From Roseateles oligotrophus (GTDB taxonomy: Bacteria > Pseudomonadota > Gammaproteobacteria > Burkholderiales > Burkholderiaceae_C), in assembly GCF_025717515.1 (NCBI RefSeq), contig NZ_JAJIRN010000002.1, positions 248,001 through 312,000 on the forward strand: a DNA stretch of 64,000 nucleotides, given 5' to 3'. Below, piece after piece: positions 1,384 through 15,602 of this stretch; the stretch's first letter is position 1, and each line of letters begins with the position of its first letter. The notes beneath the pieces were generated by a model. That model made no database searches. It saw nothing but the letters and a program-made list of their open reading frames with translations, and had not been told where the DNA came from. The translations under genes and the position numbers were made by a program.

Positions 1384-1538
1384 GACGCTCTCCCTTTGAT
1401 TCATCTCAGAGTCCGCACTGTCGCAAGAGTCGGTGACGTCACAATTAACTAGGGATACGTGATGTGCGCCATCCGGACTATTGACCTTGCCCTCGAAAAA
1501 CATAGCGCTTGCTGAGTGTTTAAATTCAAGCGAGGAGA

Positions 1539-1679
1539 ATGGAGGTGAAGAAGAAGACAAGCAGTGCGACAAGGTCGCGGTACAAGATGGAATTCAAGGT
1601 GGAGGTGGCTCGCCAGGTCGAGAAAGGCCAAAGTATTGTGCCTGCTGCACGACCGAGATCTATATCAAGAGGCACTTAG
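1539..1679 (+). pseudogene. IS3-type OrfA transposase N-terminal scrap
   Basis: A 46-residue frame (MEVKKK...) contains RYKMEFKVEVARQVEKGQS followed by AA and IS, resembling the N-terminal helix-turn-helix of IS3-family OrfA proteins. It stops at a TAG where the recognition helix and leucine zipper should follow, and no OrfB or terminal inverted repeat is visible. A purine-rich GAGGAG sits only one base before the ATG. The rest of the gene-free stretch from 1384 to 1762 shows no other coding signal. Best read as a degraded insertion-sequence fragment; a chance match remains possible. Confidence 0.35.
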
Positions 1680-1759
1680 TAAAGCCACTTCAGCCCAACG
1701 TGCGTGAGACAGAACAGGTCGAAACAGCCGCCTGACAGTCCGTCGAGTATTAGAAAGGC

Positions 1760-1864
1760 AAGAAAAAAGCACTTAGTGCCGTTCGGCGCTAAGTGCTTTT
1801 TTTCATTCTTATTTTTGGTGGGCCCTGAGTGACTCGAACACTCGACCTACGGATTAAGAGTCCG
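1760..1864. repeat. attL: duplicated tRNA-Lys 3' half plus terminator
   Basis: This segment repeats 9266-9370 with a constant offset of 7506 bases. The 64 bases 1801-1864 are identical to 9307-9370. The 16 bases before them differ at two places, and the leftmost part is similar but diverged. It contains the CCA end, T arm, variable loop and anticodon loop of tRNA-Lys(CTT), from 1816 to 1864, with no 5' half, so it is not a functional tRNA. It marks the left boundary of the integrated element. Confidence 0.9.
1763..1802. terminator. Bidirectional terminator, originally of tRNA-Lys
   Basis: An 18-base stem (1763-1780 against 1785-1802, one T-G pair) with a GTTC loop has A-runs on the left and T-runs on the right, so it can terminate in either direction. 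It sits just beyond the 3' end of the displaced tRNA-Lys fragment. Before the element inserted, it would have been the terminator of that minus-strand tRNA gene. A degenerate copy sits at the same place beside the intact tRNA, at 9269-9308. Confidence 0.75.
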
Positions 1865-1978
1865 ACCGCCCTGGTTTTGCGTGGTCACTACTGGACAAGC
1901 AATTTAATCTAAGTCGTTGATTTAACCAAGCAAAGTCTCCAACACCGTCCTAGAATGTCCAGCATCAACCACGCCAAG

Positions 1979-2041
1979 ACTGGCACCAGACTGGCACCAG
2001 CCCCAAAAGCTGGCCCACTGCTGGCACCAGACTGACACCAG
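1979..2041 (+). repeat. Left iterons, 11-bp unit actggcaccag x4
   Basis: Four near-identical 11-bp units occur as two tandem pairs: 1979-1989 and 1990-2000 (exact), then 2020-2030 (first base g) and 2031-2041 (one internal mismatch). They end 16 bases before the integrase start. The same tandem pair recurs at the far end of the element. Position and spacing suggest integrase arm-type binding sites, possibly doubling as an operator for int. The gene-free stretch 1865-1978 shows no confident promoter. Confidence 0.7.
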
Positions 2042-2057
2042 ATGAGCAGGGCAAGAG

Positions 2058-3425
2058 ATGGCAACCAAGGCAGACAAGACACCGGGCGAGATAGTCGGCG
2101 CACTCAAGCAAGGCCAATTCACCACGCTGGCGAAAGTCATCCCGAGCGGCGCATTGCAGGCCCGCAAGCTATCCACCGGAGCGGTGAAGCTGTATTGGCG
2201 CTACACGTTCAAGGGCGAGTCTGATCGGGTAGAAATCGGCCTGTATGACGGCAAACTGCCACCCAAGACCCTGACCCCCAAGGATGGCCGCTGGACTATT
2301 GCGGCGGCGATGGATGAAGCCTCACGACTGGCCCAGGCGCACGAGGACGGCAAGGAGCAAGGCGGGCACGCTGGCCTAGTCAAAGCCAAGGCCGACGCCC
2401 AAGCTCAAGCCATCACCAACGAGGCCGCAGCGCAAGCCCTGGCCCAAGCCGAGATTGATCGGCGCAGCAAGTACACGCTGGCCGAACTCCTGAAAGCCTA
2501 TTGGCTCAATCTTGAGGCGCTTGGCCGATCCTCACACACCGATGCCAAGTCAATCCTGACCAATCACGCGATAGCGGCATTTCCAGATATTGCCTGCCTA
2601 CCGGCTTCGGAAGTGACCGACGAGCAAATAGCCGACATGCGCCGCCGACTGATCGAGGCGGGCAAGGAGCGCACAGCCAACAAGCTCAGGGCCTACATGG
2701 GCGCAGCGTATGAGACTGCCCGCAAAGCAAAGACAGACCCCAAGATTCCGGTCGCATTCAAGGGCTATGAAGTCAAACACAATCCAGCCGCAGAGACAGC
2801 CGCTAACAGTGAATCCAACAAGGCCGACAAGAACCCTCTTTCAGCCGACGAGATGCGCGTTTACTGGAATTGCATTAAGGATATTGGCGGCATCAAGGGC
2901 GCGGCACTCAAACTGCACCTACTCACTGGCGGGCAGCGGATCGAACAATTGGTAAGGCTGAAGTCTGCCGATGTGACCGCCGACACAATCGCCATTTACG
3001 ACGGCAAGGGACGCCCAGGCAAACCGGCGCGGAGACATACCCTGCCGCTGACCGCTCAAGCCGCCGAAGCCATCAAGCTCTTAGACCTATCTGGCGAATA
3101 TGCGATCACCACCGAGGTGGGCGACAAGATCGGCACTATCCATTTGGTTAGCTCAACACTGAGCCGCTGGGCCGTCGACGCTGTGGGCGACAAGATCACC
3201 GACTTTCAGGCCAAGCGAATCCGCAGCGGAGTCGAAACCATCCTGGCGGGCAAGATAAGCAAAGAAATGCGCGGCAGGCTTCAAAGCCACGGCATCAGCG
3301 GCGTGCAAGACCGCCACTATGACGGTTACGACTACCTGCCCGAGCTGCGCACGGCGCTGGAAGCACTGGACAGGGAATTGAACAGCGTCAAGGCTGGCAA
3401 CGTGGTGGCGATCAAGGCGGCGTGA
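2058..3425 (+). CDS. int: Tyrosine recombinase / site-specific integrase
   Basis: A 455-residue phage-type integrase. The catalytic domain lies at about residues 265-430: box I Arg in TGGQR (R294), box II KRIR (K386 and R389), His in SHG (H411) and the probable nucleophile in RHY (Y421). Lys at 386 occupies the usual box II His position, a known but minority variant. The N-terminal half holds the arm-binding and SAM-like core-binding regions (about 140-250). It should catalyse integration and excision between the tRNA-Lys att sites; its position beside attL and the iterons supports this. AGGG about eight bases before the ATG is a modest ribosome site. Confidence 0.93.
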   Translation: MATKADKTPGEIVGALKQGQFTTLAKVIPSGALQARKLSTGAVKLYWRYTFKGESDRVEIGLYDGKLPPKTLTPKDGRWTIAAAMDEASRLAQAHEDGKEQGGHAGLVKAKADAQAQAITNEAAAQALAQAEIDRRSKYTLAELLKAYWLNLEALGRSSHTDAKSILTNHAIAAFPDIACLPASEVTDEQIADMRRRLIEAGKERTANKLRAYMGAAYETARKAKTDPKIPVAFKGYEVKHNPAAETAANSESNKADKNPLSADEMRVYWNCIKDIGGIKGAALKLHLLTGGQRIEQLVRLKSADVTADTIAIYDGKGRPGKPARRHTLPLTAQAAEAIKLLDLSGEYAITTEVGDKIGTIHLVSSTLSRWAVDAVGDKITDFQAKRIRSGVETILAGKISKEMRGRLQSHGISGVQDRHYDGYDYLPELRTALEALDRELNSVKAGNVVAIKAA

Positions 3426-3715
3426 CCGCTGGCCGAGAGGCAGACCCGCAGCGGCATTGGCTTACAGCGCATAAATGCCCGGAGAGCCGCGCCAATCAAA
3501 GGCCGACAACTTCGCGCGAGTCCTCTGATAAATCCCCAAGAACGACAAGTGTCTACGAGGAAGACATCGACATTGACGCCGATTCAAGGCGGAAACCGTC
3601 GGAAAAACCCGAAACCGCCAGTATTCTCAGTGAGATTTTTCCCGACGAAGAAAAAAGAAACCGAGTCGCAAAGTTAGCAGTCACTACCGCAAAAATGCGC
3701 GCACTTACGGCATAA
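3422..3715 (+). CDS. Small charged protein overlapping int stop
   Basis: A 97-residue frame beginning with GTG that overlaps the integrase TGA by GTGA, suggesting translational coupling. The N-terminal half is Arg/Thr/Ser-rich and low in hydrophobic residues. The C-terminal 50 residues have acidic and basic blocks (EEDIDIDAD, PDEEKRNR) and a short helix. No family is recognised. Composition alone does not prove that it is expressed. Confidence 0.35.
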   Translation: MTAGREADPQRHWLTAHKCPESRANQRPTTSRESSDKSPRTTSVYEEDIDIDADSRRKPSEKPETASILSEIFPDEEKRNRVAKLAVTTAKMRALTA

Positions 3716-4012
3716 AAACTACCGAAACACATACTGCCAGTTAATATTCTTAAACTATCAGCTAACTTTTGATTAGTGCACTTACTTGCGGGCTACGGAC
3801 GCTATTGGATGTTGCTAAGAACAGCCCTTAGAATTCAAACACGCAGCTATCCTTCGGCCCCGAATTCAAACCGGACAAGTGGAAACGTTGCGTAAAAAGA
3901 AATGGCCTGTGGGAGGTGAGATTCCCCAGGCCATCCCAAAAGACCGCTGGTGCGATCCTGTTCAACTTCGACAGCAGAACAGGACAAGTGTAGTTTCTGA
4001 AAGCCGAAAATG
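3716..4012. other. Gene-poor control region of the element
   Basis: About 300 AT-richer bases between int and the alpA-like gene. One imperfect hairpin is visible at 3903-3933 (GGCCTG against CAGGCC with an inner GGG/CCC pairing). No convincing ORF was found on either strand, and no promoter hexamers can be named safely. This is a plausible place for the leader of the replication operon or a small RNA. Confidence 0.4.
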
Positions 4013-4051
4013 TCTAGCTGCCAGCTAGAAAGAGTCAACTTTTTGTTGACT
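4013..4051. promoter_or_regulatory. Two adjacent palindromes, operator candidates
   Basis: Two perfect inverted repeats lie three bases apart, 53 bases upstream of the alpA-like start. TCTAGCTG and CAGCTAGA flank one base at 4013-4029. AGTCAAC and GTTGACT flank five T at 4033-4051. The arms are short and symmetric, like dimeric repressor sites, and no terminator-type T-run follows. They are candidates for binding by the element's own HTH proteins or by a host or helper repressor. Confidence 0.55.
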
Positions 4052-4103
4052 TAGCACGGCAGCCGGACAACTACATCACCGGCATCAACGCGAAAGCAAT
4101 TTG

Positions 4104-4328
4104 ATGACCGTAGCCCAAACCCCCCCAAAGAACGCTCAAACCGTTCAGCCTGCCGTGTACCGCTGCGCCCAAGCTGCGCCATACATCGGCGTTTCCCGCT
4201 CACAGTTCTACAACTTGGCGAAGTCGGGAGAATTCCCGATTCTCAAGCTAGGCGAACGTGCCAGCGGTGTCCTGCGCTCCGACCTGGACGCATGGCTTTC
4301 CAAGCAACGCACTGCCGCCCTGGCCTGA
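4104..4328 (+). CDS. AlpA-family HTH regulator / excisionase
   Basis: A 74-residue MerR/AlpA-type winged-helix protein. The DNA-binding unit spans about residues 19-66: AAPYIGVSRSQFYNLAKSGEFP, then a wing with KLGERASGVLRSDLDAWL. AlpA-like proteins in integrative elements activate int or act as excisionases. The ATG at 4104 was preferred over the TTG at 4101. It begins the leftward control of the replication genes and lies just downstream of two palindromes. The fold is clear; whether it activates, represses or directs excision is inferred. Confidence 0.82.
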   Translation: MTVAQTPPKNAQTVQPAVYRCAQAAPYIGVSRSQFYNLAKSGEFPILKLGERASGVLRSDLDAWLSKQRTAALA

Positions 4329-4340
4329 TCGGAGGCCACC

Positions 4341-4694
4341 ATGACGAGCAAAAAGCACGGCGCGAAGCCGGGACAAGTCACGCCTATTGCATCGGCTTTG
4401 AGCCTGCAAACCACCGCGCCCGAGCGCATCGCGGCACTGCACGCAATCCGCGACCGCTATCTCGGCGACAGCTCAAGCCAGCAATGCGCCCGACTACTTG
4501 AGGCGATGCAATCACTCGGACACTGCACCACGTTCGAGGCTTCGCGCTATCTCGATATGTACTACCCGCCAGCCCGCAAACTGAACCTTTTGCAACAGGG
4601 CCACGCGATCCAAACGACATGGCGCACTGTGCAAACCGAATCAGGCGCAACACACCGAGTCGGCGTTTACTCGCTGAAAAGGGGGCAAGAATGA
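4341..4694 (+). CDS. HTH_39-type winged-helix protein
   Basis: A 117-residue protein whose core (about residues 45-100) matches the phage-associated helix-turn-helix family PF14090: a stretch beginning LLEAMQSLGHCTTFEASRYL, then PPARKLNLLQQGHAI. The family is common in small phage-like elements and is thought to bind DNA near replication genes. It begins 12 bases after the alpA-like gene, and its TGA overlaps the next ATG (ATGA), so it heads a translationally coupled chain. The role in replication control is inference. Confidence 0.7.
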   Translation: MTSKKHGAKPGQVTPIASALSLQTTAPERIAALHAIRDRYLGDSSSQQCARLLEAMQSLGHCTTFEASRYLDMYYPPARKLNLLQQGHAIQTTWRTVQTESGATHRVGVYSLKRGQE

Positions 4695-4888
4695 GCGCCG
4701 CAGATACTGACGCCAGCGCCGACCCAAAAGCCTTTGCCACGCTTCAAGCTCAGTTCTCGCTGAAGGGTTACGCCCTGCTGCGCATGGCTGATGGCGTGAT
4801 ATTGGCCGAGCGATGGGGATTCATTCGCCAGCTCGACAGCCTGGCTCAGGCGGCGCAATTCCTGCACCAGATCGGCGGTGCACGATGA
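4691..4888 (+). CDS. Small element-encoded protein
   Basis: A 65-residue protein with an acidic, Ala-rich start (SAADTDASADP) and an amphipathic C-terminal part containing LKGYALLRMADG and ERWGFIRQLDSL. Both ends are ATGA overlaps with neighbouring genes, which strongly supports that it is translated. No named family can be assigned; its place before the primase suggests an accessory replication role. Confidence 0.65.
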   Translation: MSAADTDASADPKAFATLQAQFSLKGYALLRMADGVILAERWGFIRQLDSLAQAAQFLHQIGGAR

Positions 4889-7323
4889 ACACTGAACAAC
4901 TTTTCCAATCCGCTATCGCCAATGCTGGCCTGCCGCCACCGGACTCAATCGAGGCAGACGGCAAGCTGCACCGATTCAGCAGCAGCGGCAAACGGGGCGA
5001 CGATTCCGGCTGGTATGTCCTGCACCTGGACGGCGTACCGGGCGGCTCTTTCGGCTGCTGGCGTGCGGGCCTTACTTCAGCATGGAGTGAGAAACCCGCC
5101 ACGGCAATGACCCAGGCAGAACGCGAGGCACAACGCCAACGCAATCAGCAAGCCCAGGCCCAGCGCGATGCAGAAAAGGCGGCAGCACAAGCAGCGGCAG
5201 CAATCGAAGCATCACACCGATGGGAGGCGGCAGAACTCGCTACAGCGCACGGCTATCTGTCGGCCAAGGGCATAGCCGCCTACGGCCTGCGGATTGATTC
5301 AGCGGGCGCTCTGCTGGTTCCCATGCGCGATGCGGCGGGCAAGCTGTGGAACGTGGAGCGGATCAACCCGCAAGACACCAAGGACAAGCGAGGGCTGCCC
5401 GGAGGCAAGCGAACGGGGCTTTATCACTCAATCGGCAAGCCTAACGGCGCTCTGATCGTCTGCGAGGGCTACGCGACCGGCGCAAGCATTCACGAGGCAA
5501 CCCGGCAAGCTGTAGCGGTGGCTTTCAATGCGGGCAACCTGGAAGCGGTGGCGGTAGCACTGCGGGCCAAATACCCGGCGCTAAAGATCGTCATAGCGGC
5601 AGACGATGATTTTCAGACCGAGGGAAACCCAGGCATCACCAAGGCCACCCAGGCGGCGCGAGCTGCGGGCGCTGTCCTGGCTGTGCCTGACTTCGGCGCA
5701 GACCGACCCGACAAGGCGACCGACTTTAACGACCTGCACCAGATCGGCGGCGCTGCTATGGTGGCTCGGTGCATCGAGGCTGCGACCAGCGCCAGCCCTG
5801 CCGCCAGCAATACCGAGGAATCAGGCTGGCCAGAACCTACCCCGCTTCCCAATGACTTGCCCCCAGTTATGGCTATGGACGCCGAACTGTTGCCCGAGTC
5901 GCTGAGAGGCTGGGTGATGGACATAGCGCATCGAATGCAATGCCCTGCCGACTTCCCGGCTGTGGCGGCGCTGGTGGCGGTTTCCAGCCTGATCGGCGCG
6001 CGCGCCGTTATTCAGCCCAAGGCCCGCGACGATTGGCAAGTTGTGCCGAACCTTTGGGGCATGACGGTGGGCCGCCCAGGCGTCAAGAAAAGCCCCGCAC
6101 TGAGCGAAGCCCTGCGCCCGTTGAACCGCTTGCAAACCACCGAGTTTGAAAAGTGGCAATTGGCGCATGACGATTGGGCGCTTGATTGCAAGGTCGCAGA
6201 AATGCAATCCGACGCCAGCGAGAAAAAAGCCAAGGGACTCGCAGCAAAAGACCCGGCAGCAGCGCGGCGAGCATTGGAAGAACCTGCCGAGCTACCGCCC
6301 GAACCATTGGCGCGGCGCTTTGTCGTCAATGACGCCACTGTCGAAAAGCTTGGCGAACTGATGCAGCAAAACCCTTGGGGAACGCTGTCCTACCGCGACG
6401 AGCTTTATGGACTGTTAACCGGATTAGACAAGCAAGGCCAAGAGGGTTCAAGGGCTTTCTACCTTCAGTCCTACGACGGCAATCAGGGCTATACCTTCGA
6501 CCGCATCGGGCGCGGCACTGTCCACATACCGCGAGTCTGTCTCGCCATGATCGGAGGCATTCAGCCCGGGCGCATTCAGGAGTATGTGCGCGGCGCTGTT
6601 GCAGGCGGCAGCGGCGACGACGGCCTATTGCAGCGGTTTGGTTTGACCGTTTGGCCTGACACCTGCGGCGAGTTTGTGCACGTTGACCAATGGCCAGACA
6701 CGCCAGCAAAGCAAGGCGCTTGGGCGGTGTTTGAAAGGCTGTCGGAGTTGCAACCCGCGACCGACGACGAGCCGACCGTATGGCGCTTCGATTCAGCGGC
6801 GCAAGCTCTGTTCGTTGAATGGCTAGTCCCCTTTGAAACCGAGATACGCGGAGAGGACTTACACCCGGCGATGGTTTCGCACCTGAGCAAATACCGGAAA
6901 CTGATCCCGGCCCTGGCGCTGGTGTTCGCATTGATTGACACCCCCGAAACCGGCGGCGTGATTCAGGAGCGGGAGCTTATGCGGGCATTGGCTTGGGGCG
7001 ACTATTTGCGCACTCATGCAGAACGGCTCTATGCGGCGGCGGTAGTGCCTGAAACATCGGGGGCACGGGCGCTGCTGAACAAGATCAAGGCGGGCAAGCT
7101 GGCCGACCGTGACGGTGTGTTTTCTGATTCATTCACACCCCGACAAATTGCCGTAAAGGGGTGGACTGGCTTGAACACCCCGGACGCTGTTCGCAAGTCT
7201 GCCGATGTGCTGGCCGACTTCGACTATCTGCGGCGCGATCAAACCCAAGCGAGTGCAGCAGGAGGCAGGCCAAGCGACCGGTACACCATCAACCCGGCGG
7301 CAATGCGGAGGGCTTGCGCATGA
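4885..7323 (+). CDS. TOPRIM primase fused to DUF3987 helicase-like domain
   Basis: An 812-residue replication protein. The N-terminal part (about 1-60) resembles the DNA-binding leader of phage primases, then a Gln/Ala-rich helix (about 75-115). A TOPRIM domain covers about 185-290, with CEGYATG (E194) and AADDD (D240-D242) as metal-binding acids. The DUF3987 region covers about 320-740, with a P-loop GRPGVKKS (396-403) and SYRDELYG / GGSGDDGLLQRFG motifs. A winged-helix-like tail is likely. It should prime and unwind the element's DNA. The ATG at 4885 overlaps the preceding TGA, which fixes the start; earlier in-frame codons fall inside the upstream gene. Confidence 0.88.
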   Translation: MNTEQLFQSAIANAGLPPPDSIEADGKLHRFSSSGKRGDDSGWYVLHLDGVPGGSFGCWRAGLTSAWSEKPATAMTQAEREAQRQRNQQAQAQRDAEKAAAQAAAAIEASHRWEAAELATAHGYLSAKGIAAYGLRIDSAGALLVPMRDAAGKLWNVERINPQDTKDKRGLPGGKRTGLYHSIGKPNGALIVCEGYATGASIHEATRQAVAVAFNAGNLEAVAVALRAKYPALKIVIAADDDFQTEGNPGITKATQAARAAGAVLAVPDFGADRPDKATDFNDLHQIGGAAMVARCIEAATSASPAASNTEESGWPEPTPLPNDLPPVMAMDAELLPESLRGWVMDIAHRMQCPADFPAVAALVAVSSLIGARAVIQPKARDDWQVVPNLWGMTVGRPGVKKSPALSEALRPLNRLQTTEFEKWQLAHDDWALDCKVAEMQSDASEKKAKGLAAKDPAAARRALEEPAELPPEPLARRFVVNDATVEKLGELMQQNPWGTLSYRDELYGLLTGLDKQGQEGSRAFYLQSYDGNQGYTFDRIGRGTVHIPRVCLAMIGGIQPGRIQEYVRGAVAGGSGDDGLLQRFGLTVWPDTCGEFVHVDQWPDTPAKQGAWAVFERLSELQPATDDEPTVWRFDSAAQALFVEWLVPFETEIRGEDLHPAMVSHLSKYRKLIPALALVFALIDTPETGGVIQERELMRALAWGDYLRTHAERLYAAAVVPETSGARALLNKIKAGKLADRDGVFSDSFTPRQIAVKGWTGLNTPDAVRKSADVLADFDYLRRDQTQASAAGGRPSDRYTINPAAMRRACA

Positions 7324-7820
7324 ACTGGCTAGCAAGGCTGAAAAACAAAGAAGGCCCTAAAGCCGACCCTACAAAACCTACAAAACCAGGTTTCGTAGGT
7401 TTCGTAGGTACCCCGGCGGGCACTTTTGCAAATTCAGGGCCATCAATTGAGGCGGCGAATGATCCCGCCCACGCAACGCCCCTGCAACAAGAACGCACCA
7501 CGGACGCAACAAGCCAAACCCCCTATTGGCCAAATACCCAGCACGCGAACGATTCGGAGCTGGACACGATGGAGGCCCGCATGATGCTGTTTACACGGCG
7601 CGGCATGGCCGACACGGAAGCCGATCAACTGGCTGACAAGCTATTGCAGGCCGACCGGCAACAGACCGGCCAAGTAACTTGCCACTTGTGCCAGCACTTC
7701 AACCCCAGGCGCAAGACTTGTTCAAACTTCAAACAAGCCGGTGTAGGTCAAGAAGTCGGGTCAGACTTGGCGGCGATGTTGCAGCGGTGTCCGGGCTATC
7801 GAAAGGGGTCGACACAATGA
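7320..7820 (+). CDS. Cys-rich element protein with KPTKPGFVGFVG segment
   Basis: A 166-residue protein coupled by ATGA at both ends. Residues 17-30 (PTKPTKPGFVGFVG) are encoded by a 20-base inverted repeat. A central region is Thr/Gln/Asn-rich. The C-terminal half has CHLC (C121, C124), H126, C134 and C157, a likely zinc-binding knuckle. Proteins with the same PTKPGFVGFVG phrase occur on many proteobacterial phage-like elements, from memory of such annotations. The function is unknown; a single-strand DNA or replication accessory role would suit its place after the primase. Confidence 0.7.
   Translation: MNWLARLKNKEGPKADPTKPTKPGFVGFVGTPAGTFANSGPSIEAANDPAHATPLQQERTTDATSQTPYWPNTQHANDSELDTMEARMMLFTRRGMADTEADQLADKLLQADRQQTGQVTCHLCQHFNPRRKTCSNFKQAGVGQEVGSDLAAMLQRCPGYRKGSTQ
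7368..7408. repeat. 20-bp inverted repeat inside coding sequence
   Basis: Arms at 7368-7387 and 7389-7408 match at 18 of 20 positions and are separated by one base. Each arm is itself a near-duplicate of a smaller unit. In the minus-strand sense the two mismatches become G-U pairs; in the mRNA they are A-C. The repeat encodes the KPTKPGFVGFVG phrase. Confidence 0.8.
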
Positions 7821-8050
7821 GCAGTTCACCCGAGTTCAAGGCCGCGATGGCTCACTACAAAATTGTCGTAGTGAAGCATGGCGCGGAGTCTGCCCAGGCT
7901 CAGGCCGCATTCGCTGAGATCGTCAGGCACGCTCCTGCCGAGTACATCGATGAAGCCTATGCAGTGGCACGCGCACACTTCAACGGCGACCGACCCGGCA
8001 ACCATCGACGGGGGGAGGCTCAGGTGATGAGCTTATTCAAGAGGCGATGA
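7817..8050 (+). CDS. Small helical element protein
   Basis: A 77-residue protein, the last of five genes joined by ATGA overlaps. It is mostly helical and Ala-rich, with FKAAMAHYKIVVVKHGAESAQAQAAFAEI, so the first 45 residues probably form a helical hairpin. The basic tail (RRGEAQVMSLFKRR) may bind nucleic acid. No family is named. The 192 bases downstream hold no gene. Confidence 0.6.
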   Translation: MSSSPEFKAAMAHYKIVVVKHGAESAQAQAAFAEIVRHAPAEYIDEAYAVARAHFNGDRPGNHRRGEAQVMSLFKRR

Positions 8051-8242
8051 CGGCACCCTGGCGCTAGATCAAATGCCACCGTTTGGCGGTATTTAAGGCG
8101 CAAGCTGAACGGCTAAATACCCGGAAAAGTAGGCATTTATTCAAAGTGCCTCAAACCCAGCAACGGCGCGGCATAGCGGGCGATTGAGGCTCAAATGCTG
8201 CGCCTATTTCCCTAATGTTTTCGTAATCTGTGAGTTTCAAAA

Positions 8243-8836
8243 ATGGGCAAAGGTGGCAATAGGTGCGGCGCCGGCAGACCGGCCCAGCATGTGAAGGCCG
8301 AGCATTGCTTGAGCATTGATTCAAGGCGCTGGCAGCGTGAAGGCATCTTTACCGCTGGCCGCTCTGGTACTTGGCAATGGCGCGACCCATACACCGGGAA
8401 GCCAAGCGCGACCATTAGCTATCGAGGGCTTGGTGATGCGGTAGTTCTGCAATACAGCATTGGTGACAAGCAAATGCACCAGCACATAGAGCTAACCCAT
8501 ACCGGCTGCAACTTCGGCGGCGCGAGAACGTGGTTTGCCTGTCCGAACTGCTGCCGGAGAGTCGCAAAGCTATTCATGCGATCCGGTGCGGGTTTCATTT
8601 GCCGACACTGCGGGCGACTGCGCTATGCCAGTCAATCCACCGATGCAGTGGGCCGAACATGGCTCAAGCAATACAAAGCAGAGGCCAAGCTCGACAAGTA
8701 CCATGTGCGCCCCAAGGGAATGCACCACGCCACGCGGGCCAAGCTGCTGACCGTCATTCATGCCTGCGAGGAACAGCGCGACCGCGCACTTTGCGCATTT
8801 ATGACGGCGAGGTTTCCGAACGGCTGGCCTTGGTAG
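8243..8836 (+). CDS. Zinc-ribbon protein of mobile elements
   Basis: A 197-residue protein with a treble-clef or ribbon motif CPNC-x16-CRHC (C100, C103, C120, C123) in the middle and a basic C-terminal half rich in His and Arg. The N-terminal GKGGNRCGAGRP resembles an AT-hook-like or basic DNA-contact start. Similar proteins are often annotated as hypothetical next to integrases on proteobacterial elements. No clear ribosome site precedes the ATG. DNA or RNA binding is inferred from the ribbon. Confidence 0.7.
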   Translation: MGKGGNRCGAGRPAQHVKAEHCLSIDSRRWQREGIFTAGRSGTWQWRDPYTGKPSATISYRGLGDAVVLQYSIGDKQMHQHIELTHTGCNFGGARTWFACPNCCRRVAKLFMRSGAGFICRHCGRLRYASQSTDAVGRTWLKQYKAEAKLDKYHVRPKGMHHATRAKLLTVIHACEEQRDRALCAFMTARFPNGWPW

Positions 8837-8906
8837 CTAGCGAGGGCTGGCGCTGCTGGACTCTCCAATTTTGGATTGACCTACCGCCCCCTCAGTTTTG
8901 CGGCGG

Positions 8907-9105
8907 CGCGAATGTTCCAAAGGTGTCGAACGATACGACACCTTCGACGCCAACCCTAGCCGACATGGGCCTGACCCGCGACGAATCCAGCCGCTACCAG
9001 CAGCTTGCCGCCACTGTGCGGGCTTTTCCATTTGCGGGCGGCGAGGATGGGCACAAGCTGCGCCCCCTTGCAAATACGGGAAATTCCCGCAATGGGCCAA
9101 AGTGA
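8907..9105 (+). pseudogene. Truncated phage-type gene remnant
   Basis: In one frame, GANVPKVSND, TLADMGLTRDESSRYQQLAA and a short unrelated tail can be read before a TGA. The phrase TLADMGLTRDxSSRxQxLAA recurs in phage and plasmid proteins of about 150-250 residues that carry an HTH-like segment. Here the normal N-terminal and C-terminal parts are missing and no good start exists, so this looks like an internal fragment. From 8837 to 9235 nothing else codes convincingly; several small palindromes lie here. Confidence 0.5.
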
Positions 9106-9118
9106 GAATTCCTCACTT
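8920..9118. repeat. Three short perfect palindromes near attR
   Basis: Three inverted repeats lie within 200 bases. AAGGTGTCG pairs with CGACACCTT over a 7-base loop (8920-8944). CGGGAA and TTCCCG flank one base (9077-9089). AAGTGAG and CTCACTT flank AATTC (9100-9118). None has a T-run. They could be protein sites, stem-loops in an RNA, or features of a replication start. Confidence 0.5.
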
Positions 9119-9235
9119 CGCAAATCCCTGACATTCCGGGTGTTTGATCCGGCGATGCATTCAGCGCCAGCTAGATCGGCGCAGTCTTTCAGCGATGGCG
9201 CAACAACAGCCCAAAACGGGGTCAATCCGGCAAAT

Positions 9236-9257
9236 ACTGGCACCAGACTGGCACCAG
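9236..9257 (+). repeat. Right iterons, actggcaccag x2
   Basis: Two exact tandem copies of the 11-bp unit seen four times next to int, in the same orientation, ending 8 bases before the right att repeat. Presence at both ends of the element fits arm-type integrase sites on attL and attR. Confidence 0.7.
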
Positions 9258-9265
9258 CACCCGAA

Positions 9266-9370
9266 AAGAAAAAAGCACCTAGAGCCCTGCGGCGCTAAGT
9301 GCTTGATTTCATTCTTATTTTTGGTGGGCCCTGAGTGACTCGAACACTCGACCTACGGATTAAGAGTCCG
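9266..9370. repeat. attR: element copy of the att repeat
   Basis: Matches 1760-1864 at an offset of 7506 bases, with 64 identical bases at its right side. On this side the element supplies the sequence flanking the tRNA 3' end, including an imperfect copy of the tRNA terminator (two mismatches in the stem and an altered loop). The tRNA therefore keeps its 3' sequence and most of its termination signal after integration. Confidence 0.9.
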
Positions 9371-9397
9371 CTGCTCTACCAACTGAGCTAAGAGCCC
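9322..9397 (-). tRNA. tRNA-Lys (CTT)
   Basis: A complete 76-base cloverleaf with encoded CCA. The acceptor stem GGGCTCT pairs with AGGGCCC including one G-T. The D arm has AGCTCAGTTGGTAGAGC, the anticodon loop CTCTTAA gives CTT, and the T arm carries TTCGAGT. Its 3' half is the integration target of the 7.5-kb element, which lies directly downstream. The AT-rich 9398-9518 spacer should hold its promoter. Confidence 0.96.
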
Positions 9398-9518
9398 TAC
9401 TCTTTATTTAAATCGTCAATTTCTCAACAATTTATTTTATTCCATCAATCTTCACAGTATAGCTAATATTTTATACAAACTCACTTTTCAGTGAACGCAT
9501 ATTAATACTTGCTAGATA

Positions 9519-9594
9519 TGGTGGGTCGTGCGGGACTCGAACCTGCGACCTACGGATTAAAAGTCCGCTGCTCTACCAACTGAGCTAACGACCC
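9519..9594 (-). tRNA. tRNA-Lys (TTT)
   Basis: A complete 76-base cloverleaf with encoded CCA. The anticodon loop CTTTTAA gives TTT, and the acceptor GGGTCGT pairs with ACGACCC. It differs from the neighbouring tRNA-Lys(CTT) in the acceptor, anticodon and T stem but shares the D arm and anticodon stem. Transcription is leftward, toward the other tRNA-Lys gene. Confidence 0.96.
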
Positions 9595-9633
9595 ATCAAG
9601 CGAAGCTCACTATTCTAATCTCAATTCATGGCT

Positions 9634-10473
9634 TCACGCAATAGGCTTGCGTGAATTTTTCAAAAGAATCTTGATCAACTCCGCTGCGGCGGCCATGCCA
9701 AAGCTCGCGGTGACAGCAACACTGGAGCCATAACCGTGGCAATTGAGGCTGCCATCGACTGCGCAGGCCTCGCCGCCCTGCACTGTCGGGCGGTGAACCG
9801 CTTCACGAGAGAACACGCAAGCGAGCCCCATCTTGCCCTTGCGCGGAGCCGCATGATGTTGCCTCAAACGCTGACGTAAAGAGGCCAATAGGGGGTCATG
9901 CGTCGTGTCGGCCAAATCCTCAATGCTCATCAGATGCGGCTCTCGCTTACCTCCGGCCGCCCCGACAGCAACAAACGGCAGGCGCTGCTGTATTGCCCAA
10001 GCCGCCAAATGAGCCTTGGCTCGAACCTGATCACAAGCATCAACCAAACCATCCAGCGCTATATCGGCCCCGTCCAGCATCGCAGGCCAGTTCTGCTCAT
10101 CAACGAACTCTTCGATGATTCGAACTCGGCAGCCGGGATGAATGTCTTGAATCCGTTGCCACAGCGCCTCCGCTTTGGCCATGCCAACGGTCGAGCCAAG
10201 AGCCTGCACCTGACGGTTGATATTTGACTCAGCGACTTGGTCAAAATCTATCAGAGTCAGGGCCGCTACCCCGCTGCGAGCCAGCGCTTCGACCACCCAA
10301 GAACCCACGCCGCCAAGGCCTACGACCGCAAAATGGGCGCCGCGCAAGCGTTGATAGTCGCTGTCGCCATAAAGTCTGCGCAGGCCTCCAAAACGCCGCT
10401 CCGAGTCCGCCTCAATCGGCAAGTCAACAATGAGGCTTTGGTCCTCGAGCTTGATCTGAGGGTTGTCTTGCAT
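9634..10473 (-). CDS. tcdA: tRNA threonylcarbamoyladenosine dehydratase TcdA
   Basis: A 279-residue E1/ThiF-like enzyme. An N-terminal RRFGGLRRLYG segment is followed by the nucleotide-binding VVGLGGVGSWV (about 49-59), IDFDQVAESNINRQ, and a C-terminal GKREP / SREAVHRP region typical of TcdA (YgdL, CsdL). It uses ATP to cyclise t6A37 to ct6A37 in tRNAs reading ANN codons. The start ATG is 91 bases from the cpoB stop across a terminator. It lies directly upstream of two tRNA-Lys genes whose products are substrates of this pathway. Confidence 0.93.
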   Translation of the reverse strand: MQDNPQIKLEDQSLIVDLPIEADSERRFGGLRRLYGDSDYQRLRGAHFAVVGLGGVGSWVVEALARSGVAALTLIDFDQVAESNINRQVQALGSTVGMAKAEALWQRIQDIHPGCRVRIIEEFVDEQNWPAMLDGADIALDGLVDACDQVRAKAHLAAWAIQQRLPFVAVGAAGGKREPHLMSIEDLADTTHDPLLASLRQRLRQHHAAPRKGKMGLACVFSREAVHRPTVQGGEACAVDGSLNCHGYGSSVAVTASFGMAAAAELIKILLKNSRKPIA

Positions 10474-10510
10474 GGCGCAATTCTAGGAAGGCCCACAGGC
10501 CGGGTGACAA

Positions 10511-10540
10511 AAATAGAAAAAGGCCCCGCGAGCAGGGCCT
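10511..10540 (-). terminator. Intrinsic terminator of tolB-pal-cpoB
   Basis: Read on the minus strand, AGGCCC and GGGCCT flank an 8-base loop and are followed by a run of five T, 25 bases after the cpoB stop codon. Confidence 0.75.
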
Positions 10541-10564
10541 CTTCAAGCAACTTTCTTGCGCGAA

Positions 10565-11362
10565 TTACTTCAATGCCGCCAGGCGTTCTTTGGCCGCTTG
10601 CGCGGCCTCGGTACCCGGGTAAGCCTTGATCAAGTCTTCCAAGCTGCGTCGTGCCGACTTGTTGTCTTTCAACTCGATTTGACTGTTCGCCAATGCAAGC
10701 AAAGCCTCGGCTGCCCTGGGGTGCTGAGGATTACCGGAGATAAAGGTCTTGAAAGTTGCAATCGCGTCCTTGTAGTCCCGCTTGCCGTACTGCGCATTGC
10801 CGAGCCAAAACCGCACCGAGTCGACATAGCCACTGGCCGGAAAGCGGCGCAAGAAACCCGCCATCGCGGTCGCCGCTTCGGCAAAGTCGCCGCGCCTGAT
10901 CAGCCCCATTGCCGCGTCGTACTGCCTGCGTTCTTCCGGCTCGACCTGAAACTCGCGCCCATCGAGCTGCACCTTTTGCGGCTCCAATGGTTTCAAACGC
11001 GAGTCCAAGGACTGTGCCTGATCACCCAGCTTGCGCTGGGTTTCAGATAAATCACGAGCCAGTTGTTCGTTTTGTCCGCGCAGCTTGGCGATTTCAAGTC
11101 GCAAAGTGTCGATTTGGGCATTCAGATCAAGCATGCTGCGGCGCAAGGGACCTAACTGGTCCTGCGTCTGCGCTGCGATTTGCTCGATACGCTGGCGCTG
11201 TGCATCCTCGCTTTGCTGAACCCGATTGCGCAATTCAAGAATGGCCTTGCGTGCCTCGTCATCATCAAACAAGGCGGCGTGCGCCGGCAAACTGAACAGA
11301 ACAGCTGCCGCCATTGCGGACAAGGTACGGCCAATACCTTGACTACGACGCTGCAAGCTCAC
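10565..11362 (-). CDS. cpoB: Cell division coordinator CpoB (YbgF)
   Basis: A 265-residue periplasmic protein. The signal peptide ends near PAHA-ALFDDDEAR, residues about 35-110 form the trimerising coiled coil, and the C-terminal 130 residues form TPR repeats ending in AKERLAALK. CpoB links Tol-Pal with PBP1b during outer-membrane constriction. It starts with GTG one base after the pal stop, so it is co-transcribed with pal. The family length is normal. Confidence 0.92.
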   Translation of the reverse strand: MSLQRRSQGIGRTLSAMAAAVLFSLPAHAALFDDDEARKAILELRNRVQQSEDAQRQRIEQIAAQTQDQLGPLRRSMLDLNAQIDTLRLEIAKLRGQNEQLARDLSETQRKLGDQAQSLDSRLKPLEPQKVQLDGREFQVEPEERRQYDAAMGLIRRGDFAEAATAMAGFLRRFPASGYVDSVRFWLGNAQYGKRDYKDAIATFKTFISGNPQHPRAAEALLALANSQIELKDNKSARRSLEDLIKAYPGTEAAQAAKERLAALK

Positions 11363-11363
11363 T

Positions 11364-11900
11364 TCACTTATCCTTCAACTCAACGCGGCGGTTCTTGGCC
11401 CAAGCCGCTTCGTCGCTGCCTTGCGCAGCCGGCTTTTCTTTACCGAAACTGACCGCCTCAACCTGCGCAGCGCCCACGCCCATCAGGCTCAAGGACTTGG
11501 CCACCGCCTCGGCACGGCGTTGGCCCAGCGCCAAGTTGTACTCGCGTCCACCACGCTCGTCGGTGTGACCTTCCAGGCTGAGTGCCAGCTTGCGATCGTT
11601 CGACAGACGCTTGGCATGCGCTTCGACCAAGCCCCGATATTCGTCCTTGACAACATAGCTGTCGAAGTCGAACAGGACGACGCGCTGGCTTGCCACGGCG
11701 GCCGTCAACTGCGCGCCCAAGTCGACCGTCTGCACCTTGGATTCGGCCATCGGCGTGCTGTTAGCCCCGCTATTGGCCGTGCTGTTGGGCGACACCGGAC
11801 GGGTCTCAACGGGCGCCGGATCATCCAGCTTGACGGTCGAGCTGCAACCGGCCATGGCCGCAAGCACCAACAAACTCACAGCAAAACGGGTCATCTTCAT
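11364..11900 (-). CDS. pal: Peptidoglycan-associated lipoprotein Pal
   Basis: A 178-residue outer-membrane lipoprotein. The signal ends at the lipobox MAGC, followed by a variable linker and an OmpA-like domain (about 70-178) with LEGHTDERGGREYNLALGQRRAEAV, the peptidoglycan-binding signature. The ATG at 11900 was chosen because AAGGAG lies eight bases upstream; a GTG at 11909 is too close to that site. It acts in the Tol-Pal complex at the division site, with tolB upstream and cpoB downstream. Confidence 0.95.
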   Translation of the reverse strand: MKMTRFAVSLLVLAAMAGCSSTVKLDDPAPVETRPVSPNSTANSGANSTPMAESKVQTVDLGAQLTAAVASQRVVLFDFDSYVVKDEYRGLVEAHAKRLSNDRKLALSLEGHTDERGGREYNLALGQRRAEAVAKSLSLMGVGAAQVEAVSFGKEKPAAQGSDEAAWAKNRRVELKDK

Positions 11901-12046
11901 TCGGGTCACTCCTTCAAAAACGATCGCAAAGATCTACAAAAAATAACTCGCCGGACGACAAACAGTCAGCAAGCCTCAGTGGCAATTATCCAACAAGTCA
12001 AGAGGCCAACTTGACAGGCTGGCCGCGCATACACATGAACTCGGAA

Positions 12047-13360
12047 TTAGCGACCAAACGGACCCCAGGTCGGCTCGCGCACATCGGCCGCAGTCGAGAT
12101 CAATTTGGCCTTGATCTTGCCGTCCAAGGTGCTGGTCATCAGCACGTCGCGCCCGCCCGCACGCGTGGCATAGACCAGCAAACGGCCATTCGGCGCAAAG
12201 CTCGGGCTTTCGTCATCACTGCTATCGCTGATCTGCTGCACCGCGCCCGAGCCCAGATCCATCACGCACAGGCGAAAGCTATTGCCGCCCTGCCGCGTAA
12301 TGAAGGCCATGCTGCGGCCATCAGGGCTGATGGCCGGGCTGATGTTGTAAGCACCGCTGAAGCTGACTCGCTCGGCCGCGCCACCGCTCACCGCCATGCG
12401 GTAGATCTGCGGTCCGCCGCCACGGTCGCTGACGAAATAGATCGAGCGGCCATCGGGTGAAAAGACCGATTCGGTATCGATCGCCGAGCTTTGCGTCAAG
12501 CGCCGCAAGCCGCTGCCGTCTCGGTTCATGATGAAGAGCTGGGAGCCGCCTTCGCGCGACAGCGTCAATGCCACCTGCTGCCCGTCGGGCGAAAAAGTGG
12601 GCGCGCTATTGGTGCCGCGGAAGTCCGCCAATACCCGGCGCCGGCCGGTCTGCACATCCTGAATCCAGACCACCGCCTTGCGGCTCTCAAACGACACATA
12701 GGCCAGCTCTTTGCCGTTCGGCGACCAGGCCGGCGAGATGATGGGGTCAGGGCTTGCCAAGGCGACCTGCCCGCCTTCGCCGTCGGCATCGGTGATGCGC
12801 AGGCTGTAACGCCCACCTGCCTTGGTCACATAGGCCATGCGGGTCGCAAAAATGCCGCGCTCGCCGGTTAGTTTTTGGTAGATGGTATCGGCGATGCGGT
12901 GCGCGCCCAGACGCACATCCTCGGGCGCCACGGCATGGGCTTCGCCGCCCAGATCCTGACCCTTGACCACGTCCCAGAGTTTGTAGCGCAGATCAACGCG
13001 GCCGTCGGCCAAGCGAGCGGCGGAGCCGGCTGCCAAGGCATCGGCATTGCGGGCCCGCCATTCACTCCACACCGGCTGACTGCCTTCGAACATGCCGGCC
13101 GGGGCGTCAATGATGCGAAACTGCCCGCTGCGCTCCAGGTTGGAGCGAATGATGGCCGCCACAGGTTGGCCGGCGCGCGCCTCATCACGGAAATCCGGCA
13201 GCGCGATCGGCATCTGCGTACCGCCCACCCCAGAAATATCGACACGGAATTGAGCATTGGCCAGCGGGCTGAAGCCAAGCAATGTCGCGGAACAAGCGCC
13301 GACGGATTGCTGCAGCAGGCGCCGCCGCGATGGGTGATTCTGGGAATTCTGCTCGGGCAT
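12047..13360 (-). CDS. tolB: Tol-Pal beta-propeller protein TolB
   Basis: A 437-residue periplasmic protein. The N-terminal signal carries RRRLLQQ, a Tat-like twin-Arg variant, and ends near LANAQ. A TolB N-terminal domain follows (about 30-160), then a beta-propeller with repeated SPDG / SPNG blades such as FSPDGRSIYFVSDRGG. It binds Pal and links TolA to the outer membrane. The start at 13360 puts a short region before the twin Arg; 13399, with an AGG upstream, is an alternative. tolQ, tolR and tolA are not adjacent; rng lies upstream instead. Confidence 0.94.
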   Translation of the reverse strand: MPEQNSQNHPSRRRLLQQSVGACSATLLGFSPLANAQFRVDISGVGGTQMPIALPDFRDEARAGQPVAAIIRSNLERSGQFRIIDAPAGMFEGSQPVWSEWRARNADALAAGSAARLADGRVDLRYKLWDVVKGQDLGGEAHAVAPEDVRLGAHRIADTIYQKLTGERGIFATRMAYVTKAGGRYSLRITDADGEGGQVALASPDPIISPAWSPNGKELAYVSFESRKAVVWIQDVQTGRRRVLADFRGTNSAPTFSPDGQQVALTLSREGGSQLFIMNRDGSGLRRLTQSSAIDTESVFSPDGRSIYFVSDRGGGPQIYRMAVSGGAAERVSFSGAYNISPAISPDGRSMAFITRQGGNSFRLCVMDLGSGAVQQISDSSDDESPSFAPNGRLLVYATRAGGRDVLMTSTLDGKIKAKLISTAADVREPTWGPFGR

Positions 13361-13441
13361 TGGTTTTGCAATCAACAGTTGAAATATTCGCCGAGGCATT
13401 TTGCCTGAGCACGCCAGCAACCATGCCAGCTGCTCAGGCGG

Positions 13442-14929
<1,488 letters not shown>

Positions 14930-14990
14930 GGCCCTAATTTCTAATGTTGACGCATATCGGCAAGCATCTGCAAGCGCCGACCGATATGCG

Positions 14991-15602
14991 TCAAAACTGA
15001 ACGTCCCATTGCCGCAGCAATTGCGCGGTCTCGAACAAGGGCAGGCCCATGATGCCTGAATAGCTGCCCTCGATGCGAGAAATCCAGGCCGCCGCCTGAC
15101 TTTGAATCGCATAAGCGCCGGCCTTGCCGAAAGGCTCGCCGCTGGCGATGTATTGCCGAATCTGCGCGTCGCTGAGTGGCGCGAAGTCCACCCAGGACAG
15201 ATTCAGGGCCACGCTGCGCCGCGCACCCAAGCCAAGCGCCACGGCGGTGATGACGCGGTGGCTGCGGCCGGACAGCAGGCGCAGGGTGCGAAACGCATCG
15301 TCGGCATCCAGCGGCTTGCCGAGGATTTGCTGGTCGACCGCCACCGTCGTGTCCGAGCAAAGAATCGGCGCCGGCGGCAAACCACGCGCCGCCAAGCGAG
15401 CCAAGGCCGCATCCAGCTTGGCCTCGGTGACTCGTGCCACATAGACCTCGGGCGACTCGCCGGCAATTTCTGCCTCCAGACTCTCGGCATCTTCCTCGGC
15501 GCCCGCCAACAAGAGCTCGTAGCGCACACCGAGTTGCTCCAGCAACTGGCGTCGGCGCGGGCTCTGCGAAGCAAGATAGATGAAATCCATGGCGATGCTC
15601 AT
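14991..15602 (-). CDS. maf: Maf-family nucleoside triphosphate pyrophosphatase
   Basis: About 203 residues. The Maf signature LASQSPRRRQLLEQLG lies near the start; SDTTVAVDQQILGKP and the conserved E/K pocket follow, then SYSGIMGLPLFETAQ near the end. It hydrolyses dTTP, UTP or modified NTPs. The SPRRR and LPLFET combination suggests the YhdE-type dTTP/UTP pyrophosphatase. A start at 15590 (MDFIYLAS) is equally possible. It lies four bases after rlmH, clearly in one operon. Confidence 0.92.
   Translation of the reverse strand: MSIAMDFIYLASQSPRRRQLLEQLGVRYELLLAGAEEDAESLEAEIAGESPEVYVARVTEAKLDAALARLAARGLPPAPILCSDTTVAVDQQILGKPLDADDAFRTLRLLSGRSHRVITAVALGLGARRSVALNLSWVDFAPLSDAQIRQYIASGEPFGKAGAYAIQSQAAAWISRIEGSYSGIMGLPLFETAQLLRQWDVQF

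Follow-up and report, generated by a model that had tools for sequence, protein, structure and literature searches.

A 7506-bp element integrated at a tRNA-Lys(CTT) gene was analyzed in a 64,000-nucleotide stretch of the Roseateles oligotrophus genome (contig NZ_JAJIRN010000002.1, positions 248,001 to 312,000; this whole stretch, numbered from its first letter, is called the window). With a probability of roughly 60%, it is a phage-satellite-like integrative element of the type of the Gram-negative phage-inducible chromosomal islands (PICIs) and phage-inducible chromosomal minimalist islands (PICMIs), one that would replicate itself and be packaged by a helper phage. This kind of element is already known; new here are the host, the tRNA target, and a cassette in which DUF3987, a replicase domain of unknown function, is followed by short DNA repeats (iterons). 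A wider proposal is held more tentatively, at a little under even odds: DUF3987 would serve a widespread, self-contained replicon as its initiator-helicase. It would be an MCM-like AAA+ protein with a wing-type C-terminal fold that recognizes iterons of 9-bp period right after its own gene (at times in the next gene). Helicase domain and iterons would then be exchanged as one cassette between satellites, plasmids, and islands; Burkholderiales would have a family of tRNA satellites that is based on this cassette and spreads without a dedicated packaging gene.

Borders, genes and arm sites

The element is bounded by 64 identical bases repeated at an offset of 7506, with a mismatch at each side. 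A matching empty site occurs in a congener (G297), where the window's left flank (313-1481) aligns at 80% and is separated by 52 unaligned bases from the hairpin and tRNA-Lys(CTT) (1758-1864, at 94%). Because of this empty site, the duplication is read as an insertion, in keeping with the earlier note, which had drawn the same borders at the same tRNA gene; a chance duplication of 64 bp was ruled out by it. The congener and the genome of a sister element, L071, are probably one, Paucibacter sp. B2R-40, whose locus L002 has the same integrase, alpA, and HTH_39 matches. Leftward beyond the 64 bp, a weaker likeness continues through a hairpin (105 nt at 94%, 1760-1864 against 9266-9370), so that the element has its own diverged hairpin copy. 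The hairpin may be the terminator of the tRNA; terminator-like sites were listed at both copies, with a regional total (8) not above that of shuffles (10.8). GC content is 58.5% in the element vs. 61.3% in 9401-64000. Outside the element, 276 bp (1482-1757) do not align to the 52 bases at the empty site, and a short open reading frame (ORF) there resembles a transposase fragment, as judged by reading with no family search.

The gene set described in the earlier note, namely an integrase, an AlpA-type regulator, an HTH_39 protein, a TOPRIM/DUF3987 primase, and small unassigned genes, was borne out by Pfam and PHROG matches. All genes of the element lie on the plus strand, and ATGA overlaps join four successive pairs (HTH_39/65-aa, 65-aa/replicase, replicase/166-aa, and 166-aa/77-aa genes), which suggests one translationally coupled unit. 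Structural, packaging, and conjugation genes, also said to be lacking, were not recognized when the 10 ORFs were compared with Pfam and PHROGs (to E = 1) and with NCBIfam (to E = 0.01); specifically, there was no terminase, portal, or capsid gene (Pfam, PHROGs) and no relaxase or type IV secretion match (Pfam, NCBIfam). With no such genes recognized in the three databases, a full prophage or an integrative and conjugative element (ICE) was ruled out. A PADLOC search for defense cargo gave no match for nine proteins, seven of the window and two of the sister element.

The catalytic residues of the integrase (R294, R389, H411, and Y421) are kept in seven of eight aligned relatives, and the eighth, L130, aligns poorly at H and Y. 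One match to the integrase occurs in its own genome at E ≤ 0.001. Six CTGGCACCAG-type repeats lie within 241 bp of the left end and 134 bp of the right end, both att (attachment) copies counted, and are probable integrase arm sites as judged by their placement: all five exact copies in the window fall at the element ends, and the repeat stretch is conserved beside related integrases. The count alone is weak, as the 13 copies in the window with at most one mismatch were reached by 7 of 100 shuffles.

DUF3987 and the iterons behind it

The replicase comprises a Toprim primase domain (residues 190-290) and DUF3987 (352-717), with Pfam E-values of 4e-13 and 1e-92, Toprim_3 and DUF3987 both being above cut-off. 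Previous work predicted DUF3987 to be a helicase of primase-linked mobile elements (Kazlauskas et al., PMC5862659, in the part of that paper used here). An AlphaFold2 model of the last 480 residues, based on 51 aligned domains, reached a predicted local distance difference test score (pLDDT) of 90.4. Foldseek gave eight matches at E ≤ 0.001, all to MCM2-7 complexes or replisomes (chains labelled 2, 5, or 7), with template-modelling (TM) scores of 0.34-0.38 and root-mean-square deviations of 10-17.5. The modelled domain thus appears to resemble MCM helicases, distantly, and the C-terminus of the model (420-470) looks winged-helix-like by the order of its helices and strands. Sequence relatives in the PDB were just two artificial repeat proteins (E 0.01-0.02).

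Immediately downstream, 45 bp after the replicase stop, is a block of four iterons, and all four exact matches in the window fall there. Similar blocks follow related genes: CTAC[AG][AG]AA was found on both strands within 150 bp of the stop in 23/23 loci whose DUF3987 is at least 62% identical to that of the window, and was absent in 4/4 divergent loci (L143, 37%; L071, L112, and L123, about 23%), where other repeats occur. An array score independent of the repeat unit was 3-7 in all 27 loci. Both counts include the window, and L059 and L144 in them are one element; the short duplicates L029 and L031 were dropped from the array-score set, and L069 was too short. At its true stop, L123 scored 4, which 0/246 background windows reached. 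In L067, L068, L070, and L072, the array is present even though the search for a 166-aa homolog found none, so that it must be more than a protein motif. Synonymous shuffling of the start of the 166-aa gene, done for 8 of the 27 loci with 500 shuffles each, reached the palindrome rarely in L052 (0), L055 (1), L060 (3), L061 (3), and L056 (4).

The sister element offers a second view of the same association. DNA similarity to the window covers the Toprim part, ends at 5796, and resumes at 7451. DUF3987, the C-terminal part, the iterons, and the opening codons of the 166-aa gene all fall in the unmatched block between (5796-7451). From this pattern, L071 seems to have swapped DUF3987 and iterons together. 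Read across the sequences, the iterons co-vary with DUF3987, and the block is likely to act as a replication origin. Such an exchange between sister elements would constitute a natural test of specificity, and DUF3987, so far the subject of helicase prediction only, gains a concrete DNA site at which it can be tested. The literature search returned no paper naming both DUF3987 and iteron.

Beyond the close relatives, the signal was sought in a phylum sample, in which PF13148 occurred in 34/299 genomes and 30 loci were fetched. In the 150 bp after DUF3987, 9-bp periodicity was 11.5 of 18 vs. 8.8 in 1222 control windows (27 of the 30 loci; the window itself, L158, and L178 and L179 were dropped); the p-value of 6.7e-8 is optimistic because some of these loci are close relatives. 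Among periods of 5-15, only 8 was raised besides 9 (p = 8e-4), and 10/27 loci exceeded all of their own controls. This test was picked after the sequences of the same loci had been viewed, the 9-bp period having been seen earlier in the first set. A strict test for inverted and periodic repeats was passed by 8/30 loci and 8/938 control windows (L152 being marginal, and the set including the window and L178 and L179, for which the correct ORF was missed), and a looser inverted-repeat test by 11/28 loci, the window included, and 26/456 control windows. YfjI-type DUF3987 genes followed by iteron-like repeats also occur on a 21.8-kb Bartonella plasmid and an Acinetobacter plasmid. Iterons after DUF3987 could serve as a DNA signature for locating replicons of this kind.

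Several results pull the other way. The array score is modest at single loci, being reached by no background window in 7/27 loci and by 1 to 27 in the others, and the palindrome was reached by 24 of 500 synonymous shuffles in the window, which is weakly unexpected, 27 in L058, and 36 in L051. Some phylum loci, such as L153, L154, L165, and L171, have no 9-bp periodicity, and there was no iteron signal after yfjI of CP4-57 or in vB_Pae_U10. The two plasmids each score 4, a value reached by 8/89 and 5/95 background windows, so that neither is significant alone. RHOAph (L151) failed the repeat test, though a long inverted repeat is visible by eye.

Relatives, known satellites and routes of transfer

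Integrase relatives (E ≤ 1e-30) were found in 33/299 genomes sampled from the family, its own included, and a replicase search of genome contigs gave 22 loci, titled as Burkholderiales genera or families or simply as beta proteobacterium. Loci above 5 kb were searched for exact repeats shared by a tRNA gene and the remainder of the locus. A tRNA is present in 42 of these 72 loci, 28 remain once the tRNA-Lys site loci L094-L110 are left out, and 12 of the 28 have a tRNA-end repeat of 42-82 bp at a distance of 5.7-12.3 kb (tRNA-Lys, Met, Pro, and Thr genes). All 12 elements carry an ORF clustering with the window integrase at the remnant end, and five share the replicase (L059, L071, L112, L123, and L130). 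Others combine the parts differently: L113 (10602-12722) has a related integrase at tRNA-Lys(TTT) with a Prim-Pol + AAA replicase, not Toprim-DUF3987, and L133, L136, and L137 share the 197-aa protein without a replicase of the window type. The closest in layout is L112, from another genus of the family and also at tRNA-Lys(CTT), with the same core order: int, toxin-antitoxin-like pair, alpA, small gene, 65-aa homolog, replicase (37% identical overall), 166-aa homolog, small gene, and 197-aa homolog (31%). The gene in the place of HTH_39 there has no Pfam match. The search for related elements at tRNA-Lys that had been proposed earlier thus met with success.

Comparison with known satellites, made from the parts of the cited reports used here, places the element close to two groups. 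Gram-negative PICIs, read rightward, have int, alpA, and pri-rep, then an origin with two iteron sets directly after it (PMC6092414). The same rightward order, with two iteron sets immediately 3′ of the replicase as in EcCICFT073, is seen in the window, and the earlier view that the element falls outside the PICI layout does not hold. Unlike the PICI origin, the window's iteron sets are parted by a 1-bp spacer with no AT-rich stretch; neither terS nor any gene for redirection or interference, which only some PICIs have, was recognized in the element. Prophages are said never to use the att sites of PICIs (PMC6092414); a twin of a related element (L144, below) shares its att core with a prophage at tRNA-Pro. 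The tRNA-Lys site also holds related integrases of possibly large islands: those of L105 (6643-7971, genome G304) and L107 (7206-8525, G301) are 79-80% identical to that of the window and each has a 49-nt tRNA-Lys remnant next to it. The same contig of G304 also carries the intact tRNA-Lys, at a distance of about 194 kb, and an integrase of the window type may therefore also serve large islands.

In PICMIs, int is followed by alpA, often with a small overlapping gene in between, and by a primase that is searched for by DUF3987 or DUF5906 models. No packaging-redirecting genes were found in them; for PICMI115 of Vibrio chagasii, a helper and concatemer packaging were shown (PMC10803314). By sequence, the window element matches them in int, a 4-nt-overlapping ORF, alpA, a small gene, a DUF3987/DUF5906-type primase, the lack of recognized redirecting genes, its small size, and the dominance of excision and replication genes. 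It differs in its target and host, tRNA-Lys(CTT) in a Burkholderiales host vs. fis in Vibrionaceae, and in the overlapping ORF, which has a GTG start and no counterpart seen in the sister element from Paucibacter. Of the PICMI Pfam models, those for AlpA and DUF3987 are passed; the integrase stays below the PF00589 cut-off (15.8 vs. 27.1 bits) yet is an integrase by PHROGs. The published search model requires a fis gene (PMC10803314) and would miss the element for that reason. Apart from host and target gene, then, the element fits both outlines as those reports give them, and it takes the range of minimalist satellite-like elements beyond the fis sites of Vibrionaceae to tRNA genes of Burkholderiales.

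Other satellites share parts of this design. In phiAH14b of Pseudomonas, reported to be packed in the capsids of phage AH14a (PMC4936722, in the part used here), int, alpA, a Toprim primase, and a helicase are followed by inverted 9-bp iterons; unlike the window element, it has a DUF927 helicase, a length of 16.8 kb, and two separate replication genes. P4 and CP4-57 likewise have a tyrosine integrase, an AlpA-like regulator, and a replication gene, and yfjI of CP4-57 is annotated as DUF3987, though without an iteron signal after it. The capsid and transactivation genes of P4 are psu, sid, and delta. Unlike P4, the element has no family match of this kind (Pfam, PHROGs, NCBIfam).

In the proposed cycle, the integrase, aided by AlpA, would excise the island between the att copies at tRNA-Lys. 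The Toprim-DUF3987 protein would bind the inverted iterons of 9-bp period that directly follow its gene, DUF3987 would unwind the DNA there as an MCM-like helicase, and Toprim would prime replication, the product of which would probably be multimers. A helper phage, probably infecting rather than resident as a prophage, would package this DNA. A helper is invoked because no packaging gene was recognized; it is plausible by analogy, since proven satellites have an equal or similar layout, phiAH14b shares the origin design, and one twin element lies by a prophage. That twin, on the IMG/VR contig L144, is 99.99% identical to the L059 element and joined at a 47-bp att core (tRNA-Pro) to a phage block, with endolysin, tail-fiber, terminase, and virion-protein genes directly after it (6866-15253), later ORFs that are capsid- and portal-like by eye only, and no intact tRNA of the kind that comes after the element in L059. 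Searching the contig with the integrase of the satellite gave that integrase as the sole match, and an unrelated integrase could have been missed; given this limit and a contig cut at its far end, both a satellite-helper tandem and one composite prophage are possible. Seven genomes that host relatives gave no match to the L144 terminase, which shows nothing by itself.

Against helper packaging stands the lack of a pac or cos site or redirecting gene among the features found in the element, and excision, induction, and particle formation are all steps that we infer. Terminase_6N, GpA_ATPase, and Phage_portal, the phage types searched, have no match in its own genome, which makes it unlikely that a resident phage of these types acts as helper. 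In IMG/VR, 2.9 million contigs were scanned by pattern; the scans, which detect close relatives only (the 166-aa homolog of L144 was missed) in a collection that selects for viral genes, found one replicase relative and none of the integrase, 166-aa, or 197-aa proteins.

Conceivably, the element could instead be an integrative mobilizable island, its circle moved by a helper plasmid or ICE acting on an origin of transfer, or the island itself spreading by transformation, with replication only maintaining the circle. The related integrases of G301 and G304, with their possible large islands, and the occurrence of replicases with similar domains on plasmids would suit this explanation, which is nonetheless rather unlikely: gene order and origin follow those of phage-satellite replicons, and no relaxase or conjugation family was recognized in the 10 ORFs, an origin of transfer not having been searched for. 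The plasmids of Bartonella and Acinetobacter, neither of them significant alone, bring to mind a replicon that lives as a plasmid, integrates by its tyrosine recombinase, and has no specialized transfer. This is improbable, as no partition gene was recognized (Pfam, NCBIfam) and, among the matches listed, 80% coverage of the replicase was reached by 0/72,556 plasmid records; all 12 bounded relatives are integrated, which says little because they were selected by tRNA repeats.

A decayed prophage, stripped of its structural genes and now fixed in the chromosome, is less probable still. The four ATGA overlaps, the catalytic residues, the att copies, and the arm repeats are all kept, and elements of similar size occupy tRNA genes of several genera. 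Full phages do have Toprim primases of this kind, and no resident helper was found with the three families searched, but the DUF3987 part matches just 1/50,697 phage records at E ≤ 1e-5. A helper-packaged satellite-like element remains the preferred explanation.

Features of the element and side observations

Table 1. Features of the element and its target site, in window coordinates.
Feature	Position	Strand	Evidence or remark
att copy, distal, integrase-side end (remnant of tRNA-Lys 3′ end + 15 bp)	1801..1864		64 bp identical to 9307-9370
Four CTGGCACCAG-type repeats, two pairs, 11-bp spacing	1980..2041	+	3 exact, 1 with one mismatch
Tyrosine integrase, 455 aa	2058..3425	+	phrog_1, E=1e-25
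97-aa ORF, position like PICMI iolg, reality uncertain	3422..3715	+	GTGA overlap with int stop
AlpA/excisionase-type helix-turn-helix (HTH) protein	4101..4328	+	Phage_AlpA, HTH_17, TIGR01764 above cut-off
HTH_39 winged-helix protein, 117 aa	4341..4694	+	PF14090, E=1e-20
65-aa conserved small protein immediately 5′ of replicase	4691..4888	+	Homologs upstream of primase in several relatives
Replicase, Toprim + DUF3987	4885..7323	+	Pfam above cut-offs
166-aa Cys-containing protein, iterons within the start of its gene	7320..7820	+	Homologs after primase in many relatives
Putative replication origin, four iterons CCTAC[A/G]AAACC	7368..7408		Two forward, two reverse, 9-bp period
77-aa small protein	7817..8050	+	ORF, ATGA overlap
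197-aa protein with CxxC pairs	8243..8836	+	Relatives (E ≤ 0.001) in 29/299 family genomes, own included
Right-end segment	9076..9171		91% identical in sister element L071 despite differing neighbor cargo; short palindromes by eye
Two exact CTGGCACCAG repeats, 11-bp spacing	9237..9257	+
Hairpin downstream of tRNA, element-borne diverged copy	9269..9306	-	Alignment; other copy 1763-1800
att copy, proximal, continues into intact tRNA-Lys(CTT)	9307..9370		64-bp identity; tRNA by ARAGORN and Rfam
tRNA-Lys(CTT), target gene, left whole by the element's att half	9322..9397	-	ARAGORN, Rfam

The 97-aa ORF has no significant family match and the 166-aa protein has none (Pfam, PHROGs, NCBIfam), and the DNA of 3426-4100 matches no other fetched genome. 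Read from its sequence, the 197-aa protein seems zinc-ribbon-like; its one marginal PHROG match, to a terminase small subunit (E = 0.44, no significant stretch), was taken as noise. No structured RNA families other than tRNAs were recognized in 1500-9700, and promoter and terminator scans of the region were uninformative.

In L112, the pair between int and alpA (7913-8694) consists of a Gp49-like protein, just under cut-off, and an HI1420-type antidote. RHOAph, a 10.7-kb linear record from Rhodovastum, carries a DUF3987 gene, a prohead protease/capsid fusion, ParA, and a toxin-antitoxin pair, and looks like a capsid-bearing satellite in plasmid form. Finally, the genome of the window holds a second, partial DUF3987 gene (G000:C54:163088-163786; profile positions 123-361, in a 443-aa open frame), which is perhaps the remnant of another element.

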